Shown one piece after another: positions 2,977 to 37,514 of a stretch of 64,000 bases of DNA. The notes under the pieces are model-generated. The model saw only the letters and a list, made by a program, of their open reading frames with translations, ran no database searches and had not been told where the DNA came from. The DNA is from Mucilaginibacter flavus. Lineage in GTDB: Bacteria; Bacteroidota; Bacteroidia; Sphingobacteriales; Sphingobacteriaceae. A program made the position numbers and the translations under genes. Within the stretch, counting starts at the first letter, position 1, and every line of letters begins with the position of its first letter. The DNA lies in NCBI RefSeq assembly GCF_030409315.1, contig NZ_JAUFPS010000096.1, forward strand, positions 62,001 through 126,000. The letters are read 5' to 3'.

Positions 2977-3370
2977 GGCGCAAAACGTTCTATCGCTGCT
3001 TACTTGTTAGGCGGAGGAAAGTCCGGGCAACACAGAGCATCCTGCTTCCTAACGGGAAGGCACCGGCAGCCGGTGACAGCAAAGTGCCACAGAAATAATA
3101 CCGCCACCTTCTTTTGATTGTGGTAAGGGTGAAAACGTGAGGTAAGAGCTCACGACATTGCCGGGCGACCGGTGATGATGGTAAACCTCAGGAGTTGAAA
3201 AACCAAATAGGTCTCGAAAGCGGAGCTGCTCGTTCCCGTATCCTGGCTTGCCAGTATCGTTGAGATGGGTAGGTTGTTTAAACCTGTCAGCAATGGCAGG
3301 GCCAGATTAATGATAGAAGTTGCCCCTTCCGGGGCAATACAGAACCCGGCTTACAGATTTGCTGCTGATA
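2977..3370 (+). ncRNA. rnpB: RNase P RNA (catalytic subunit), bacterial type A
   Basis: The universally conserved P4 strands are present: GGAGGAAAGTCCGGGC at about 3013-3028 and ACAGAACCCGGCTTAC at about 3339-3354. Helix P2 is formed by TTCTATC (2988-2994) and GATAGAA (3312-3318). P1 pairs GGCGCAAA (2977-2984) with TTTGCTGCT near 3358-3366, with one bulge. The length of about 390 nt fits the type. A near-consensus -7 box TACCTTTA lies at 2968-2975, just before the 5' end. This RNA removes 5' leaders from tRNA precursors. The ends are estimates from the pairing, good to a few nt. Confidence 0.95.
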
Positions 3371-31771: not shown

Positions 31772-32209
31772 ATGCTTTCCAAAAAGACTAAGTACGCTAT
31801 TAAAGCACTGGTGATCCTGGGTAAAAATATGGATCAGCCACCTATGCAAATTTCAAAGATCGCTGAGGCCGAACGTATCCCCAAGAAGTTCCTGGAGCAA
31901 ATCCTGCTCGATTTACGCAACGCGGGTTTCCTGTACAGTAAAAAAGGTGCCGGAGGCGGTTACAGCCTTAACCGCGATCCTAAGGAGATATTCCTGGTAA
32001 GCATTATGCGTATCACGGACGGGCCTATCGCTATGGTGCCCTGCGCCAGTTTAAATTTTTACCACAAATGCGAGGAATGTCACCAGGAAACTACCTGCGG
32101 CATTCGTGATGTGTTTGTTGATGTACGGGATGCTACCCTTAAAATCCTGAGCGAAACAAGCATTGCCGATATCATTTCGCGCGAGCAATCGCTCATCGTT
32201 CGTACTTAA
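31772..32209 (+). CDS. Rrf2-family transcriptional regulator of the sulfur operon (putative)
   Basis: The gene encodes 145 residues. The Rrf2 winged-helix N-terminus (KYAIKALVILGKNM, QISKIAEAERIPKKFLEQIL, GFLYSKKGAGGGYSL) is followed by a dimerisation helix. Four cysteines occur at 91, 100, 103 and 109 (PCASLNFYHKCEECH, TTCG), in the region that holds the Fe-S cluster of IscR and related sensors. CymR-type Rrf2 proteins control sulfur assimilation in Firmicutes. The location directly upstream of the sulfite reductase operon, with similar candidate sites at both promoters, supports the same job here. Confidence 0.9.
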   Translation: MLSKKTKYAIKALVILGKNMDQPPMQISKIAEAERIPKKFLEQILLDLRNAGFLYSKKGAGGGYSLNRDPKEIFLVSIMRITDGPIAMVPCASLNFYHKCEECHQETTCGIRDVFVDVRDATLKILSETSIADIISREQSLIVRT

Positions 32210-32266
32210 AAATTTCTCATCAAACTGTAAAATAGCCGTTATTTTCAATTAAATTCTACCATTTCC

Positions 32267-32276
32267 CTATACTATG
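32267..32276. promoter_or_regulatory. Candidate Rrf2 operator at the sulfur operon promoter
   Basis: CTATACTATG matches the reverse complement of TATAGTATAG from the Rrf2 upstream repeats at 9 of 10 positions. It directly abuts the -7 box at 32279, where a bound repressor would block polymerase. Confidence 0.55.
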
Positions 32277-32278
32277 TA

Positions 32279-32286
32279 TATATTTG
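32279..32286 (+). promoter_or_regulatory. -7 box of the sulfur operon promoter
   Basis: TATATTTG is a perfect TAnnTTTG match. It lies 10 nt before the leader ORF start at 32297, so transcription should begin within a few nt of that codon. Confidence 0.7.
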
Positions 32287-32296
32287 GAGAACAAAC

Positions 32297-32371
32297 ATGA
32301 ATATTTCAATTAATACTGGCTTTTATATGTGTCAACGTTGCTGCTACGCAGGCGGTAAGGGCTCATTATAG
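32297..32371 (+). CDS. Cysteine-rich leader peptide of the sulfur operon attenuator
   Basis: This 24-codon ORF starts at ATG 32297 and ends with TAG at 32371. It encodes three cysteines close together (MCQRCCYAGGK; Cys codons at 32330-32332, 32339-32341 and 32342-32344). It lies between a perfect -7 box and the sulfite reductase gene, and a terminator hairpin follows. The position, length and tandem Cys codons are those of an attenuation leader peptide: translation stalls on Cys codons when charged tRNA-Cys is scarce. The peptide itself probably has no function. Confidence 0.78.
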   Translation: MNISINTGFYMCQRCCYAGGKGSL

Positions 32372-32394
32372 TTATGTATTGAACCTTATACGCC
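32351..32394 (+). promoter_or_regulatory. Putative antiterminator hairpin
   Basis: GGCGGTAAGG (32351-32360), inside the leader ORF just behind the Cys codons, pairs with CCTTATACGCC (32384-32394): ten pairs with one G-U and one bulged A. Its 3' arm shares bases 32392-32394 with the terminator stem, so the two hairpins exclude each other. Confidence 0.68.
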
Positions 32395-32423
32395 TCTTTA
32401 GCCAATGCCAAAGGGGCTTTTTT
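32392..32423 (+). terminator. Attenuator terminator before sulfite reductase
   Basis: The stem GCCTCTTT (32392-32399) / AAAGGGGC (32410-32417), with one T-G pair, is followed by TTTTTT. It lies 22 nt before the sulfite reductase ATG with no gene between, so it can only serve as a conditional terminator. Confidence 0.82.
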
Positions 32424-32445: not shown

Positions 32446-34536
32446 ATGCAAAGCTTCAGAACAGAGCTGGAGAACCCTATTGTTGAGCAGGATATTATTG
32501 ATCTTGAAAAAAAGATCAGGGCTTTTCGCGAGGGTAAAATACATGATGAAAAGTTCAGGAGTTTACGTCTGGCCCGTGGTGTTTATGGCCAGCGCCAGCC
32601 TGGCGTGCAAATGGTACGCATCAAATTGCCTTTTGGTAAAGTAACATTTAAGCAGTTATTAAAAATTGCCGATATATCTGACGAGTATGGAAGCCGCAAC
32701 CTGCACCTTACCACCCGCCAGGATATCCAGATTCACTATGTAAGCCTTGATCGTACCCCGGAGCTTTGGGCAAAACTGGAACAGGATGATATTACCTTGC
32801 GTGAAGCTTGCGGTAACACCGTTAGAAATGTTACTGCCTCCCCTTCTGCCGGTATTGATCCGCAGGAGCCATTTGATGTTTCGCCATACGCGCATGCTAC
32901 TTTTGAGTATTTTTTGCGTAACCCGGTTTGCCAGGAAATGGGTCGTAAATTTAAAATCTCATTTTCGTCAAGCGATGTTGATACGGCGTTTTCCTACATA
33001 CATGATATCGGCGCTATCCCTAAAATAAACGCTAATGGCGACCGTGGTTTCAAAATCATGTTGGGTGGTGGCCTTGGTGCCCAGCCGCTATTGGCCAGCA
33101 TAGTTGAAGAGTTTTTACCAGAGGATCAATTGATCCCTTACATAGAGGCTATCATTCGTGTATTTGACCGTTACGGCGAGCGTAATAACCGTAACAAGGC
33201 CCGCATGAAATACCTGATCCAAAAATTAGGGTTGGATGAAGTATTACGCCTTGCAAAAATTGAACGCACTGCCATTAAAGTAAAAAGCTATCCAGTTAAC
33301 AGGGATGCCGTACCACAGCCAGAGCCAGCAACAGAAACCGCCTTTGCAGAAGTAAGCATCAGCAACCCGTTCCGTTACGAACAGTGGCTGGCAACAAACG
33401 TTTTTGAACAAAAGCAAAAAGGCTTTTACGGCGTATACATTAAAGTGCCTGTAGGCGATATTTCATCTGATACAGCCCGCGAGTTGGTTAAGGTTTTAGA
33501 ACCTTTGGTAGCCAACGAAATCAGGATAACCCAAAACCAGGGCTTGTTATTAAAATTTGTACGCAAAGAGGCCTTGCCATCACTATACGAAGGCTTGGCT
33601 AAGCTTGAACTGGCAGCCCCGGGTTTTGATACCGTTGCCGATGTTACCACATGCCCCGGTACCGATACCTGTAACCTGGGTATCAGCAACAGCATGACCA
33701 TGGCCCGCGTATTGGAAGATTTAATCTATAACGAATACGAAGAATTTATATTTAACCGCGAAATTAAAATCAAAATAAGCGGTTGTATGAACTCATGCGG
33801 TCAGCATGGTTTGGCGCATATTGGTTTCCATGGCAGCTCATTAAAAGCCGGCACAAAGGTTTTACCTTCGGTTCAGGTAATGTTGGGTGGCGGTACTGTT
33901 GGGGATGGCGTTGGTCGTGCGGCCGAGCGCGTAATTAAAGTACCTTCAAAAAGGGCGACTGATGTGTTAAGATCTGTATTGGATGACTATAAAGCGCTTT
34001 CTCCAGAGGGAGAAACCTTCCACGCTTATTACGACAGGCAGGGTAAAGATTATTTTTACCGCTTACTAAAACCACTCGCCGATTTAACCACCCTTACCGA
34101 AGATGAATTTGTTGACTGGGGCCACCAGGAAACTTTTGTTACCGCTATAGGTGTTGGCGAGTGCGCCGGTGTAGTGATAGATCTGGTTGCTACCCTATTG
34201 TTTGAATCGGAAGAAAAAATGGGCTGGGCCAATGGCTCATACCAATTGGGTAACTGGTCTGATGCTATTTACCATTCTTATAATGTATTTATCAGTTCGG
34301 CTAAGGCTTTGCTGTTAGATAAAGGCATCAACAGCAGCACACAATCGGGAATTATCAAAGAGTTTGATGCGCAGTATATCGCTACCGGTGAATTTGAACT
34401 GCAAGGAACTTTTAACGATCTGGTTTTGCAAATCAATCAAAACGAACCATCGGAAGAATTTGCAACTGCCTACCTGGCGCAAGCAACTGAGTTTTTGAAT
34501 AAGAGTAAGGATAAGAGAGAGGCATTGGTTCAATAA
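32446..34536 (+). CDS. Sulfite reductase, siroheme/[4Fe-4S] type, with HEPN-like C-terminal extension
   Basis: The gene encodes 696 residues. Two ferredoxin-like/sirohaem half-domains are seen, with DEYGSRNLHLTTRQDIQIHY in the first and substrate-site arginines. The cluster ligands are Cys403 and Cys409 (CPGTDTC) and Cys447 and Cys451 (GCMNSC). A C-terminal extension (~560-696) is helical and HEPN-like, a form common in Bacteroidota. It reduces sulfite to sulfide in the cytoplasm; a nitrite reductase role is less likely given the CysH and sirohaem genes behind it. Its stop overlaps the cobA start by 1 nt. Confidence 0.92.
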   Translation: MQSFRTELENPIVEQDIIDLEKKIRAFREGKIHDEKFRSLRLARGVYGQRQPGVQMVRIKLPFGKVTFKQLLKIADISDEYGSRNLHLTTRQDIQIHYVSLDRTPELWAKLEQDDITLREACGNTVRNVTASPSAGIDPQEPFDVSPYAHATFEYFLRNPVCQEMGRKFKISFSSSDVDTAFSYIHDIGAIPKINANGDRGFKIMLGGGLGAQPLLASIVEEFLPEDQLIPYIEAIIRVFDRYGERNNRNKARMKYLIQKLGLDEVLRLAKIERTAIKVKSYPVNRDAVPQPEPATETAFAEVSISNPFRYEQWLATNVFEQKQKGFYGVYIKVPVGDISSDTARELVKVLEPLVANEIRITQNQGLLLKFVRKEALPSLYEGLAKLELAAPGFDTVADVTTCPGTDTCNLGISNSMTMARVLEDLIYNEYEEFIFNREIKIKISGCMNSCGQHGLAHIGFHGSSLKAGTKVLPSVQVMLGGGTVGDGVGRAAERVIKVPSKRATDVLRSVLDDYKALSPEGETFHAYYDRQGKDYFYRLLKPLADLTTLTEDEFVDWGHQETFVTAIGVGECAGVVIDLVATLLFESEEKMGWANGSYQLGNWSDAIYHSYNVFISSAKALLLDKGINSSTQSGIIKEFDAQYIATGEFELQGTFNDLVLQINQNEPSEEFATAYLAQATEFLNKSKDKREALVQ

Positions 34537-35315
34537 TGACTGATAAAAATTTGAAAGAATCTAAAATAACACTGGTGGGTGCGGGTCCGGGTGATGCCGA
34601 TCTAATTACGGTAAAGGCAATCAAAGCCCTTAAAACTGCCGATGTTGTTTTGTACGATGCTTTGGTTAACGAAGAGTTACTGGAATATGCTCCAACGGGT
34701 GCTGTAAAGGTGTTTGTAGGTAAACGTTCGGGCGATCATACGTACTCGCAGGATGCGGTAAATAAACTGATGGTTGATTATGCTCTGAACTATGGTCATG
34801 TAGTTCGTCTTAAAGGCGGCGATCCTTTTGTGTTTGGTCGTGGATTTGAAGAGTTAGATTTTGCAGCGTCTTTTAATATTCCTGCTACGGTTATTCCCGG
34901 TATTTCAAGCTCTATCGCGGTTGCAGAGTTACAAAATATTCCGGTTACCCACCGTGGTTTAAGCGAAAGCTTTTGGGTAGTAACAGGTACTATATCTAAC
35001 GGAAAAGTTTCTCCTGATATTTACGATGCTGCCCGCAGCCGGGCTACCGTGGTTGTGCTAATGGGAATCAATAAACTTGCCGAAATAACAGAAATCTTCA
35101 AAGCTGAAGGTAAAACCAAGTTACCAGTAGCCGTTATTCAGAGCGGAACAACTGTAAATGAGCAGGTTGTTATTGCAACTGTTGATACCATAGTTGAGGC
35201 CGCCAAAGAAAACAAAATTGGTTCGCCCGCCATTATTGTGCTGGGCGAAGTAGTGTCCCTACACCCGAAATATAAATTGATTACAGACATCTATGACGTT
35301 GTTGCCCAGGGATAA
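34536..35315 (+). CDS. cobA: Uroporphyrinogen-III C-methyltransferase
   Basis: The gene encodes 259 residues. The SUMT signatures are present: ITLVGAGPGDADLITVKAIKAL, VVLYDALVNEELL, VRLKGGDPFVFGRG and IPVTHRGLS. It makes precorrin-2 from uroporphyrinogen III with two SAM, the first step of sirohaem synthesis for sulfite reductase. It is coupled to the sulfite reductase gene (stop/start overlap TAATG), and the next gene begins 23 nt before its stop. Confidence 0.95.
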   Translation: MTDKNLKESKITLVGAGPGDADLITVKAIKALKTADVVLYDALVNEELLEYAPTGAVKVFVGKRSGDHTYSQDAVNKLMVDYALNYGHVVRLKGGDPFVFGRGFEELDFAASFNIPATVIPGISSSIAVAELQNIPVTHRGLSESFWVVTGTISNGKVSPDIYDAARSRATVVVLMGINKLAEITEIFKAEGKTKLPVAVIQSGTTVNEQVVIATVDTIVEAAKENKIGSPAIIVLGEVVSLHPKYKLITDIYDVVAQG

Positions 35316-36801
35316 AAGTTTAGCTAAAATTGAGCACGAAGAGATTGGCGGCAATCAATTGTTCCCGGTATTTCTGAAGCTTAATAACCTGCATACGGTT
35401 TTGGTAGGCGGCGGCAATGTGGGCCTTGAAAAACTTACGGCAATACTCAACAATAGCAACCATGCAAAGGTTACTATCATCTCAAAAACCTTTTTGCCCG
35501 AGATTCATGAACTTGCCGCTAAATATGAGGGACTTAACATTATCCAGAAATCATTTACCGACTATGACCTTAACACCGCCGAGGTAGTTATAGCAGCTAC
35601 TAACGATAGTGAACTGAATAAATATGTACGCCAATCGGCCCACGACCGTAAGTTGCTGATTAATGTAGCTGATAAACCTGAACTATGTGATTTTTACTTA
35701 GGATCAATAGTTAAAAAAGGCGACCTCAAACTGGCAATTTCTACCAATGGTAAATCCCCAACTGTAGCTAAGCGTCTTAAAGAGGTTTTAAATGAAAGCC
35801 TACCCGAAGAGTTAGACACCACCCTACAGCAAATGAGCGAGTTAAGAGAAACACTTAGCGGCGATTTCGCGGATAAAGTAAAAAGATTAAATAGTGTAAC
35901 CAAAGTATTGGTAGAACCTAAATCGGCAGTAATCAAAAACTTCATATGGCTTATTTGGTCTACTATTATTGTCTCTATAGCAATTGTGGTAACTGCGCTT
36001 TACATTAAAGAACCCGCTTTTAAAACTTTTATCGAAGGTGTTAACCCACAATTTTATTATTTCCTGGGTGCCGGCTTTGTGTTTGCCATGATTGATGGTG
36101 CTATAGGCATGAGCTATGGAGTTACAACAACTACATTTTCATTATCAATGGGCATCCCTCCCGCTTCGGCCAGTATGGGTGTTCACCTTTCAGAAATTAT
36201 GAGTTGCGGCATTGCCGGCTGGATGCACTACCGTATGGGTAATATTAACTGGAAATTATTTTGGCTATTGGTTTTGCCCGGTGTGCTGGGAGCCGTTTCG
36301 GGCGCTACCATCCTATCGTCGCTTGAGCATTATAGCATGTATACCAAACCTGTAGTATCGGTATATACATTGATATTGGGATTTGTTATTCTTTCCAAAG
36401 CTTTCAATATCAAGAAAAAAAAATCTGCCGATAAAGTAAAACGGATCTCGTTGCTTGGTTTAGGCGGTGGTTTTATTGACGCTGTTGGCGGTGGTGGTTG
36501 GGGCTCAATCGTATTATCAACTTTAATAGCAGGTGGCCGCAGCCCTATATTTTGCTTAGGCACTGTAAAGTTGTCGCGCTTTTTTGTGGCAATAGCCGGA
36601 TCAATCACGTTTATTGCTTTGGTAAGCAGTAGTCATTGGCAGGCGGTTGCGGGCCTGGTGCTTGGTAGCGCGCTGGCTTCGCCTATAGCTGCCAAAATAT
36701 CAAATAAAATATCAACAAAAACAATTATGGTGTCGGTATCGGTTATTGTTATCCTTATCAGTATCAGGGCTATTGCGTTGTTTTTAATGAAGGTGCTGTA
36801 A
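35293..36801 (+). CDS. Fusion: precorrin-2 dehydrogenase/ferrochelatase domain plus TauE/SafE-type transporter
   Basis: The gene encodes 502 residues. Residues ~15-210 match the Met8/CysG N-terminal module: FPVFLKLNNLHTVLVGGGNVG (NAD site), then INVADKPELCDFYLG and AISTNGKSPTVAKRLKE. From ~215 on there are about eight membrane segments of the TauE/SafE (TSUP) family, with GAIGMSYGVTTTTF and GGGFIDAVGGGGWG as the paired repeats. The N-terminal part would finish sirohaem with CobA; the transporter would move sulfite, sulfate or a similar anion. The reading frame is continuous with no sign of error. The start overlaps cobA by 23 nt. Confidence 0.9.
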   Translation: MTLLPRDKSLAKIEHEEIGGNQLFPVFLKLNNLHTVLVGGGNVGLEKLTAILNNSNHAKVTIISKTFLPEIHELAAKYEGLNIIQKSFTDYDLNTAEVVIAATNDSELNKYVRQSAHDRKLLINVADKPELCDFYLGSIVKKGDLKLAISTNGKSPTVAKRLKEVLNESLPEELDTTLQQMSELRETLSGDFADKVKRLNSVTKVLVEPKSAVIKNFIWLIWSTIIVSIAIVVTALYIKEPAFKTFIEGVNPQFYYFLGAGFVFAMIDGAIGMSYGVTTTTFSLSMGIPPASASMGVHLSEIMSCGIAGWMHYRMGNINWKLFWLLVLPGVLGAVSGATILSSLEHYSMYTKPVVSVYTLILGFVILSKAFNIKKKKSADKVKRISLLGLGGGFIDAVGGGGWGSIVLSTLIAGGRSPIFCLGTVKLSRFFVAIAGSITFIALVSSSHWQAVAGLVLGSALASPIAAKISNKISTKTIMVSVSVIVILISIRAIALFLMKVL

Positions 36802-36803
36802 AT

Positions 36804-37514
36804 ATGAACGAGTTAGCAAAACAAGTAAAAGCTTCCATAGCTGGCCTTAGCCCTGTTGAAGCATTGGCCAAGCTGGCCAACCTTTTCCCCGGCGAAATTG
36901 TATTTTCTACCAGCTTTGGCTGGGAAGACCAGGTGATTAGTCACATGATCTTCGCCAACAAATTGCCTATCAAAGTTTTCACGCTGGAAACCGGAAGGCT
37001 TTTCCGCGAAACTTACTCGGTTTGGAGCAGTACTATGGATAGGTATAAACAGCCGATTCACGCCTATTATCCTAACCAGGATTTGCTGGAGCAAATGGTG
37101 AGCACTAAAGGCCCTAACAGCTTTTACGAATCGGTAGAGAACCGTAAAGAGTGCTGCGGTATCCGTAAAATAGAGCCGCTAAAACGCGCGTTAAAAGGCA
37201 ATAAGTTATGGATTACCGGCATTCGTGCAGATCAATCTGTTAACCGCCATGATATGCATGATGTGGAATACGACGAGCAAAACAACCTGGTAAAATTCCA
37301 CCCCATTTTTAGCTGGACTTTGGATGATGTTAAAGCGTATATCAAACAATATAACATTCCTTATAACTCATTGCATGATAAGGGCTTTCCGAGCATCGGC
37401 TGTATGCCTTGCACACGTGCTGTAGCCGAAGGCGAAGATTTTAGAGCCGGCCGCTGGTGGTGGGAAGATCAATCCAAAAAAGAATGCGGGCTGCATGAGG
37501 TTGCGGCTAAATAA
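36804..37514 (+). CDS. cysH: Phosphoadenylyl/adenylyl-sulfate reductase, [4Fe-4S] type
   Basis: The gene encodes 236 residues. The PP-loop-like segment is FSTSFGWEDQVI. The paired cysteines Cys117-Cys118 and Cys200-x-x-Cys203 form the CC...CxxC motif that marks enzymes with an Fe-S cluster, which usually prefer APS to PAPS. The catalytic Cys is in ECGLHE at the C-terminus. It makes sulfite for the sulfite reductase of the same operon. It follows the fusion gene after 2 bp and is followed by a strong terminator. No ATP sulfurylase genes (cysD/cysN or sat) are in this operon. Confidence 0.94.
   Translation: MNELAKQVKASIAGLSPVEALAKLANLFPGEIVFSTSFGWEDQVISHMIFANKLPIKVFTLETGRLFRETYSVWSSTMDRYKQPIHAYYPNQDLLEQMVSTKGPNSFYESVENRKECCGIRKIEPLKRALKGNKLWITGIRADQSVNRHDMHDVEYDEQNNLVKFHPIFSWTLDDVKAYIKQYNIPYNSLHDKGFPSIGCMPCTRAVAEGEDFRAGRWWWEDQSKKECGLHEVAAK

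Follow-up and report, generated by a model that had tools for sequence, protein, structure and literature searches.

A predicted cysteine-sensing attenuator ahead of the sulfite reductase operon of Mucilaginibacter flavus, and similar candidate leaders across families of Bacteroidota

In attenuators of the trp, his and ilv type, the leader ORF carries codons for the end product of the operon, an antiterminator and a terminator share one arm, and the terminator is located before the first structural gene. Attenuation mediated by the ribosome depends on RNA polymerase and the ribosome being tightly coupled. The Bacteroid-trp RNA is a Trp leader. It is listed as RF01692 (PMC2864571), leader-peptide attenuation has been suggested for amino-acid operons of F. 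psychrophilum (PMC9723704), and short ORFs of B. thetaiotaomicron were called "reminiscent of leader peptides" (PMC7366714). For cysteine, attenuation was proposed for the uORFC-8-2 motif upstream of cysS in Rhodobacterales (PMC8632094), while the polycysteine leaderless short ORFs of mycobacteria are reported to be cysteine-responsive and were called translation attenuation (Canestrari 2020). Cys leaders are also described from Actinobacteria, those of Mycobacterium cys genes being without conserved terminator hairpins (PMC1262725).

The stretch of DNA analyzed here (the window, 64,000 nucleotides in all) contains a candidate attenuator upstream of an operon that starts with sulfite reductase (SiR). 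It resembles the trp/his/ilv-type attenuators of Proteobacteria in its leader ORF, shared arm and terminator before the first gene, and differs from them in its Cys (and Met) codons, its Bacteroidota −7 promoter, its very short 5' end before the AUG and, in relatives, the frequent presence of two units in series. It shares with uORFC-8-2 the tandem Cys codons in an upstream ORF and the intrinsic terminator, but that motif is alphaproteobacterial and precedes cysS, whereas the leader here precedes SiR in Bacteroidota and does not belong to the motif as outlined in the available part of its description, in which no Met cluster of the kind found here is mentioned. The available account of the mycobacterial polycysteine ORFs likewise has a Cys-rich short ORF before cysteine-biosynthesis genes; those ORFs are leaderless, and the leaders described here would be near-leaderless (10 nt from box to start codon in the window) and, unlike the mycobacterial Cys leaders as far as that literature portrays them, are followed by an intrinsic terminator. 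Leader-peptide attenuation is also what was suggested for Bacteroid-trp and the F. psychrophilum candidates, but the accessible portions of those reports name no cysteine or SiR leader. The window leader and 20 leader loci gave no Rfam covariance-model match at gathering score for amino-acid leader families.

The candidate attenuator had been proposed by a sequence-only reading of the window, which also held that a ribosome-dependent cysteine attenuator was not known to be described for Bacteroidota. Among the matches listed from the open-licence literature, there was no Cys attenuator of SiR in Bacteroidota, and among the matches listed from the literature no Cys/Met leader of this kind. As for the mechanism, leader-peptide attenuation had already been suggested in the phylum. 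The Met codons, tandem copies and class-wide spread described below are additions to that reading. The features of the locus are the following:

31772–32209, + strand, Rrf2-family regulator just upstream of the promoter, CymR-like, with a score below the CymR cut-off
32279–32286, + strand, −7 promoter box TATATTTG of Bacteroidota type, by direct sequence reading
32297–32371, + strand, leader ORF MNISINTGFYMCQRCCYAGGKGSL, 24 codons plus stop, by direct reading
32310–32382, + strand, 5' hairpin, 32310–32321 with 32370–32374 and 32376–32382, from the minimum free energy (MFE) fold
32327–32344, + strand, regulatory codons Met11-Cys12 and Cys15-Cys16
32351–32360, + strand, antiterminator 5' arm, which forms in folding with a ribosome on Cys12
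32384–32394, + strand, antiterminator 3' arm with A32390 bulged, overlapping the terminator stem
32392–32423, + strand, intrinsic terminator, stem 32392–32399/32410–32417 with T6 tail
32446–34536, + strand, sulfite reductase (NIR_SIR; SiR), first gene of the controlled operon
34536–35315, + strand, uroporphyrinogen-III C-methyltransferase (SUMT; siroheme)
35293–36801, + strand, CysG N-terminal domain fused to a TauE/SafE permease domain (sulfite-exporter-type)
36804–37514, + strand, CysH, phosphoadenylyl/adenylyl-sulfate reductase

The proposed anatomy proved exact on direct reading: the leader ATG (32297) lies 10 nt behind TATATTTG, and the 24-codon ORF has three Cys codons (32330–32332, 32339–32341 and 32342–32344, in a peptide ...MCQRCC...) and its stop codon at 32369–32371. 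A script verified all ten claimed pairs of the antiterminator, 32351–32360 with 32384–32389 and 32391–32394, one of them G·U. The terminator stem has eight pairs, including one G·U, and is followed by T6 at 32418–32423; as claimed, it shares bases with the antiterminator, namely 32392–32394. This terminator was absent from the output of a consensus terminator scan. The leader RNA (32290–32423) folded better than 195 of 200 shuffled sequences (z −2.1), and in the ribosome-free MFE fold the 5' hairpin leaves the terminator free. The best SiR match among the matches listed (97%) was to M. dorajii, and the nearest named relatives belong to Mucilaginibacter. Elsewhere in the window, an Rfam match identified a class A RNase P RNA at 2977–3369.

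Two sets of sequences upstream of SiR were searched for similar leaders. The named set (n = 80) comprised up to 700 bases upstream of SiR from 79 loci among the matches listed, plus the window; L065 was dropped because its SiR start was missing. For the class set, 296 genomes were sampled evenly across the class. SiR was present at E ≤ 1e-100 in 74, and 72 usable upstreams were left once L120, which was not oriented, and the copy from the window itself had been dropped. Short ORFs with at least three Cys in six codons were found in 24/80 named upstreams, compared to 5 on the reverse strand and a mean of 2.4 in shuffled sequences (among the matches listed), and in 27/72 class-wide upstreams, compared to 4 and 1.5, respectively. 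Among the matches listed, 52 of the 80 named loci had a Cys-containing ORF with a terminator within the 80 nt that precede SiR; a −7 box of the pattern TAnn[TC]TTG preceded 51 of these ORFs, and 38 had tandem Cys-Cys. (L043 was put into the 52 by hand, having been missed by the promoter pattern, and L017 was excluded because the script picked the wrong hairpin, though a leader and terminator are visible.) Across the class, 30/72 loci, from 15 of the 25 sampled families, had an M/C-rich leader and terminator directly upstream of SiR, with peptides such as MMCCMMC, MCMCMCMCCCM and AMMCCCCCMM; with the terminator no longer required, this ORF rule gave 31/72 on the forward strand vs 3 on the reverse strand. 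The remaining 42/72 loci had no directly upstream leader under this rule, which misses the NCC- or FCC-type leaders of L095, L096 and L098, so that the class-wide count is too low. The leader was also absent from some Mucilaginibacter loci.

The leader ORFs are thus rich in codons for the product of the operon, and the recurrence of Cys codons upstream of SiR in relatives, which the sequence-only reading had named as a check, is above both the reverse strand and shuffled sequences. All four Cys-Cys spellings are used (14/10/7/7 of 38 and 15/13/9/7 of 44), which indicates selection for the amino acid rather than the DNA. The peptide around the Cys residues is not conserved, and their number and spacing vary. 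The distribution of TGY by frame (135/86/12 and 171/96/18) is blurred as a test of the Cys codons by ATG-T/C overlaps. By these sequence criteria, similar predicted Cys/Met-rich leaders precede the SiR operon in many Bacteroidota families. Several loci depart from the pattern. L040, L053, L054 and L056 have a terminator-like hairpin in the last 80 nt before SiR and no Cys leader ORF. About −170 to −120 from SiR, L034 and L039 carry an in-frame TGT TGT ... TGT TGC run behind a −7 box and no ATG/GTG start (L039 is known only as ...ICCYIIVAL), which suggests a degenerate or oddly initiated leader. The MQICCC... leader of L033 (4872–4994) extends almost to the SiR start, and the script found no terminator there; possibly, this locus uses another mode of control.

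An intrinsic terminator lies between the leader ORF and the first gene. When the 72 class-wide upstreams and the named L089, L090, L092 and L093 (76 in total) were considered, 47 of 50 M/C-rich ORFs had a terminator within 190 nt, compared to a mean of 5.0 (2–9) in dinucleotide shuffles; at −10 kcal/mol or better, there were 44 leader terminators vs 0.8. Since both the Cys-cluster ORFs and the terminators behind them exceed controls, the arrangement of leader ORF, antiterminator and terminator is not a chance product. No intrinsic terminator was found within 190 nt of the Cys-rich leader ORFs of L090, L092, L265, L266 and L275, some of which have runs of 6–7 Cys; these leaders are perhaps under Rho-dependent or translational control.

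Conservation of the stems was assessed in an alignment of 17 hand-chosen, Mucilaginibacter-like rows (16 relatives and the window), of which L020, L022 and L029 are off by one in the terminator 3' arm. In these rows, the terminator columns were paired in 95.6% of cells, above 498/500 shuffles, and the conserved columns fell mostly within the terminator. The antiterminator columns of the window were paired in 52.9% of cells, a value reached by 83/500 shuffles, and exhibited no covariation in excess of shuffles. Lacking column-wise support in the 17 chosen rows, 32351–32360/32384–32394 was rejected as a conserved exact helix. The compensatory changes that the sequence-only reading had called for were therefore found weakly for the terminator, in a single pair with changes on both sides, and not for the antiterminator.

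Because the exact arm fails column by column, the case for the antiterminator is carried by class-wide tests of the arms. These used 42 of the 47 leader–terminator pairs, five having been removed by hand: one in L145 whose ORF was false, and two in L089, one in L090 and the second of L093, all four with an apparently wrong terminator call. The spacer, which runs from the final Cys codon of the cluster up to the terminator, forms better pairing with the terminator arm of its own locus than with foreign arms (p ≈ 4e-9), the reverse swap shows the same preference for the own partner (p = 1e-7, 42 pairs), and real spacers beat shuffled ones (p = 2e-13; 26/42 individually at ≤0.05), all p-values being optimistic because related loci are not independent. 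The antiterminator uses the terminator 5' arm and is placed just behind the regulatory codons, its own 5' arm beginning 8–24 nt past the last Cys in 41/42 leaders and 2 nt past it in L097. In the Sphingobacteriaceae-centered set, the arm-swap tests were weak (p = 0.014 and 0.07; shuffle p = 0.005). Antiterminators were poor at several Pedobacter loci, and the window's own arm pairing beat every foreign-arm swap in this set. By eye, many relatives have a GGCTNTAA-like arm at the stop codon that faces the same terminator arm. This pattern would be consistent with fast turnover of the antiterminator 5' arm under a conserved logic.

We consider the element most likely to be a ribosome-mediated transcription attenuator that senses cysteine and works like the trp and his attenuators, with a probability of about 0.87. 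The sequence-only reading had arrived at the same interpretation, now supported by the anatomy, the occurrence in 15/25 families, the matched arms and a ribosome-dependent switch in silico (below). Transcription would start a few bases before the leader AUG, and in many relatives about at the AUG: the box sits at the −7 region (PMC7366714), and in 20/51 leaders among the matches listed 4 nt separate TTTG from the start codon, which together predict such a start site. According to the available part of the same source, only ≈3.7% of 5' UTRs in B. thetaiotaomicron are under 10 nt (PMC7366714). When charged tRNA-Cys is scarce, the ribosome would stall at the Cys codons, 32351–32360 would pair with 32384–32394, no terminator would form, and the sulfate-reduction operon would be transcribed. 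When cysteine is plentiful, the ribosome would proceed to the stop codon and cover 32351–32360, so that the terminator (32392–32417 plus T6) could form and transcription would end; with no ribosome on the leader, the 5' hairpin would likewise favor the terminator. Such a scheme presupposes coupling of RNA polymerase and ribosome, and with a natural attenuation reporter in so many families, such coupling could be tested directly in Bacteroidota. The element would also represent control of sulfate assimilation at the RNA level in the phylum and an example of attenuators stacked in series.

The switch was modeled by folding the nascent RNA up to, but not including, the terminator 3' arm, with a ribosome placed on the first Cys of the cluster. 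In the class set (42 leaders), the terminator arm was sequestered with a mean P of 0.77, compared to 0.47 when the spacer was shuffled and 0.17 when the ribosome stood at the stop codon. The Sphingobacteriaceae-centered set (52 leaders, among the matches listed) gave 0.65 vs 0.40 and 0.18, respectively (p = 2.5e-10), and family averages went in the same direction in 16/16 families (p = 1.5e-5). The contrast between stalled and stop positions is partly trivial, since less RNA is free at the stop, and the weight therefore rests on the shuffled-spacer control.

Within the window, with the ribosome taken to reach 12 nt past the first base of the codon in its A site, a ribosome on Cys12 gave P(anti) 0.89 and P(term) 0.09 for antiterminator and terminator, respectively. 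On Cys15 the values were 0.58/0.77 at the permissive edge and 0.47/0.98 at the strict edge, and on Cys16 0.33/0.98; at the stop codon they were 0.00/0.98 and without a ribosome 0.02/0.97. In these folds, the claim that a stall at the Cys codons frees the antiterminator thus holds at Cys12, barely at Cys15 and not at Cys16, and Cys12 should be the effective stall at this locus, while the companion claim that a ribosome at the stop codon allows the terminator agrees with the folding. Equilibrium folding with the ribosome on Cys gave P(term) <0.5 in only 2/42 and 11/52 leaders, and was no better than with shuffled spacers in the class set (p = 0.37; p = 0.0013 in the other set). It was dropped as the main test: for most loci the finished terminator prevails even with a stalled ribosome, so that this kind of folding carries no information there. 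Since the switch is seldom visible at equilibrium, it would have to be kinetic.

Methionine codons are enriched in the leaders as well. In-frame ATG exceeded the other two frames by 94:13:5 and 145:10:6 in two leader sets; the latter had been picked partly for Met, and the enrichment was therefore recounted on leaders selected for Cys only, taking Met over non-Cys residues. In the class (36 peptides), Met accounted for 85/217 residues within two positions of a Cys and 37/631 elsewhere; in the other set (28 peptides), the counts were 27/165 and 12/373, respectively. This enrichment beside Cys raises the possibility that the leader senses both Cys and Met, so that Met stalls also matter and the operon follows the total supply of sulfur amino acids, an extension of cysteine attenuation that we marginally favor. 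It would make sense, as sulfide feeds both Cys and Met, and some operons start with metX-homoserine dehydrogenase (the metX assignments score below family cut-offs) or carry a homocysteine-forming sulfhydrylase. However, Met starvation would also lower initiation, favoring the terminator, and Met beside Cys could instead serve the peptide or the RNA. The window leader has a single internal Met, Met11, and Met is absent from the vicinity of Cys in 10/28 peptides of the second set.

Control of the operon by the Rrf2-family regulator alone, the terminator merely ending transcripts, would account for a regulator immediately upstream and for the several relatives that keep the promoter without the leader, but the terminator follows both the −7 box and the leader ORF, and in other families leader and terminator co-occur, also in tandem copies, which makes this explanation very unlikely. 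The regulator is probably a second control layer on the operon. A stretch CTACNA..TTCC..TATA in the promoter (~32245–32286) looks conserved by eye in relatives and is perhaps its operator; a repressor plus an attenuator would make two control layers.

Cys-rich leaders occur in copper control, and the Cys and Met residues might be copper ligands in a metal- or redox-sensing nascent peptide that stalls the ribosome, rather than lack of charged tRNA doing so. The variable number, spacing and surroundings of the Cys residues speak against such a peptide, as does the location of the leaders examined, which were sought and lie before sulfate-reduction and Met genes, and we regard it as highly improbable. 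A metabolite riboswitch with an incidental ORF, which would also be a structured leader with a terminator, is the least credible alternative, given that the window leader had no Rfam match and 20 leader loci matched only a tRNA, that the conserved columns of the 17 rows lie mainly in the terminator, and that the synonymous exchange of Cys codons and the in-frame Met enrichment point to translation. A tRNA gene is present between the second attenuator and SiR in L128 (259–330, minus strand of the locus).

Cysteine attenuation may act more than once at the same operon. Two leader–terminator units were present in 11 of the 30 class-wide leader loci, and at the named Adhaeribacter locus L093 inspection of the sequence likewise reveals two leaders and a hairpin for each. 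A box lies 9–19 nt ahead of the first leader in 10/11 tandem loci, and the gap from first terminator to second leader is 4–30 nt in 6/11. In the 10/11 tandem loci where this gap can be inspected (in L117 the ORF call begins too early), it contains no TAnnTTTG box, so that a separate promoter for the second unit is hardly to be expected, and polymerase would arrive there only by reading through the first. The two units would then act in series, and transcription would have to pass two starvation checks.

Twelve of the 72 class loci have a different open frame whose end is no more than 60 nt from SiR, and all 12 were traced upstream. An M/C-rich ORF precedes the first operon gene in eight (L265–L269, L272, L275 and L276, with L267 the weakest peptide) and was not found there in L270, L271, L273 and L274. 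Five of the eight displaced leaders are followed by a terminator (L267, L268, L269, and L272 and L276 twice each); the others, L265, L266 and L275, are among the terminator-less leaders noted above. The operon orders include metX-homoserine dehydrogenase-(aldo/keto reductase)-SiR and cysH-homoserine sulfhydrylase-SiR. These stretches (45,873 bases) contain 12 M/C ORFs on the forward strand, at least two of them not in leader position, and one on the reverse strand. Taken together, these loci tentatively suggest, at somewhat less than even odds, widespread near-leaderless Cys+Met attenuators that are tied to the first gene of the SiR/methionine operon and often serially stacked without a second promoter.

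Other cysteine and methionine genes were scanned with looser rules than those used for the SiR leaders. A wider cysteine regulon was rejected, as there was no clear leader before cysD (30 loci) or cysK/M (30 loci). The six lax matches among the 30 cysD loci were not leader-like, five having TTG starts, and the stretch examined at the cysDN locus of the same genome as the window contained no leader. For cysK/M, there were three lax matches in 30 rows, one of which (L248) was misplaced, and the weak candidates L258 and L259 end ~55 nt before the gene. The metX scan gave five lax matches in 21 rows, including one misplaced row (L206); in L213, a convincing M/C-rich leader ORF, NCIMRCSCCCMRQC, precedes metX away from SiR.
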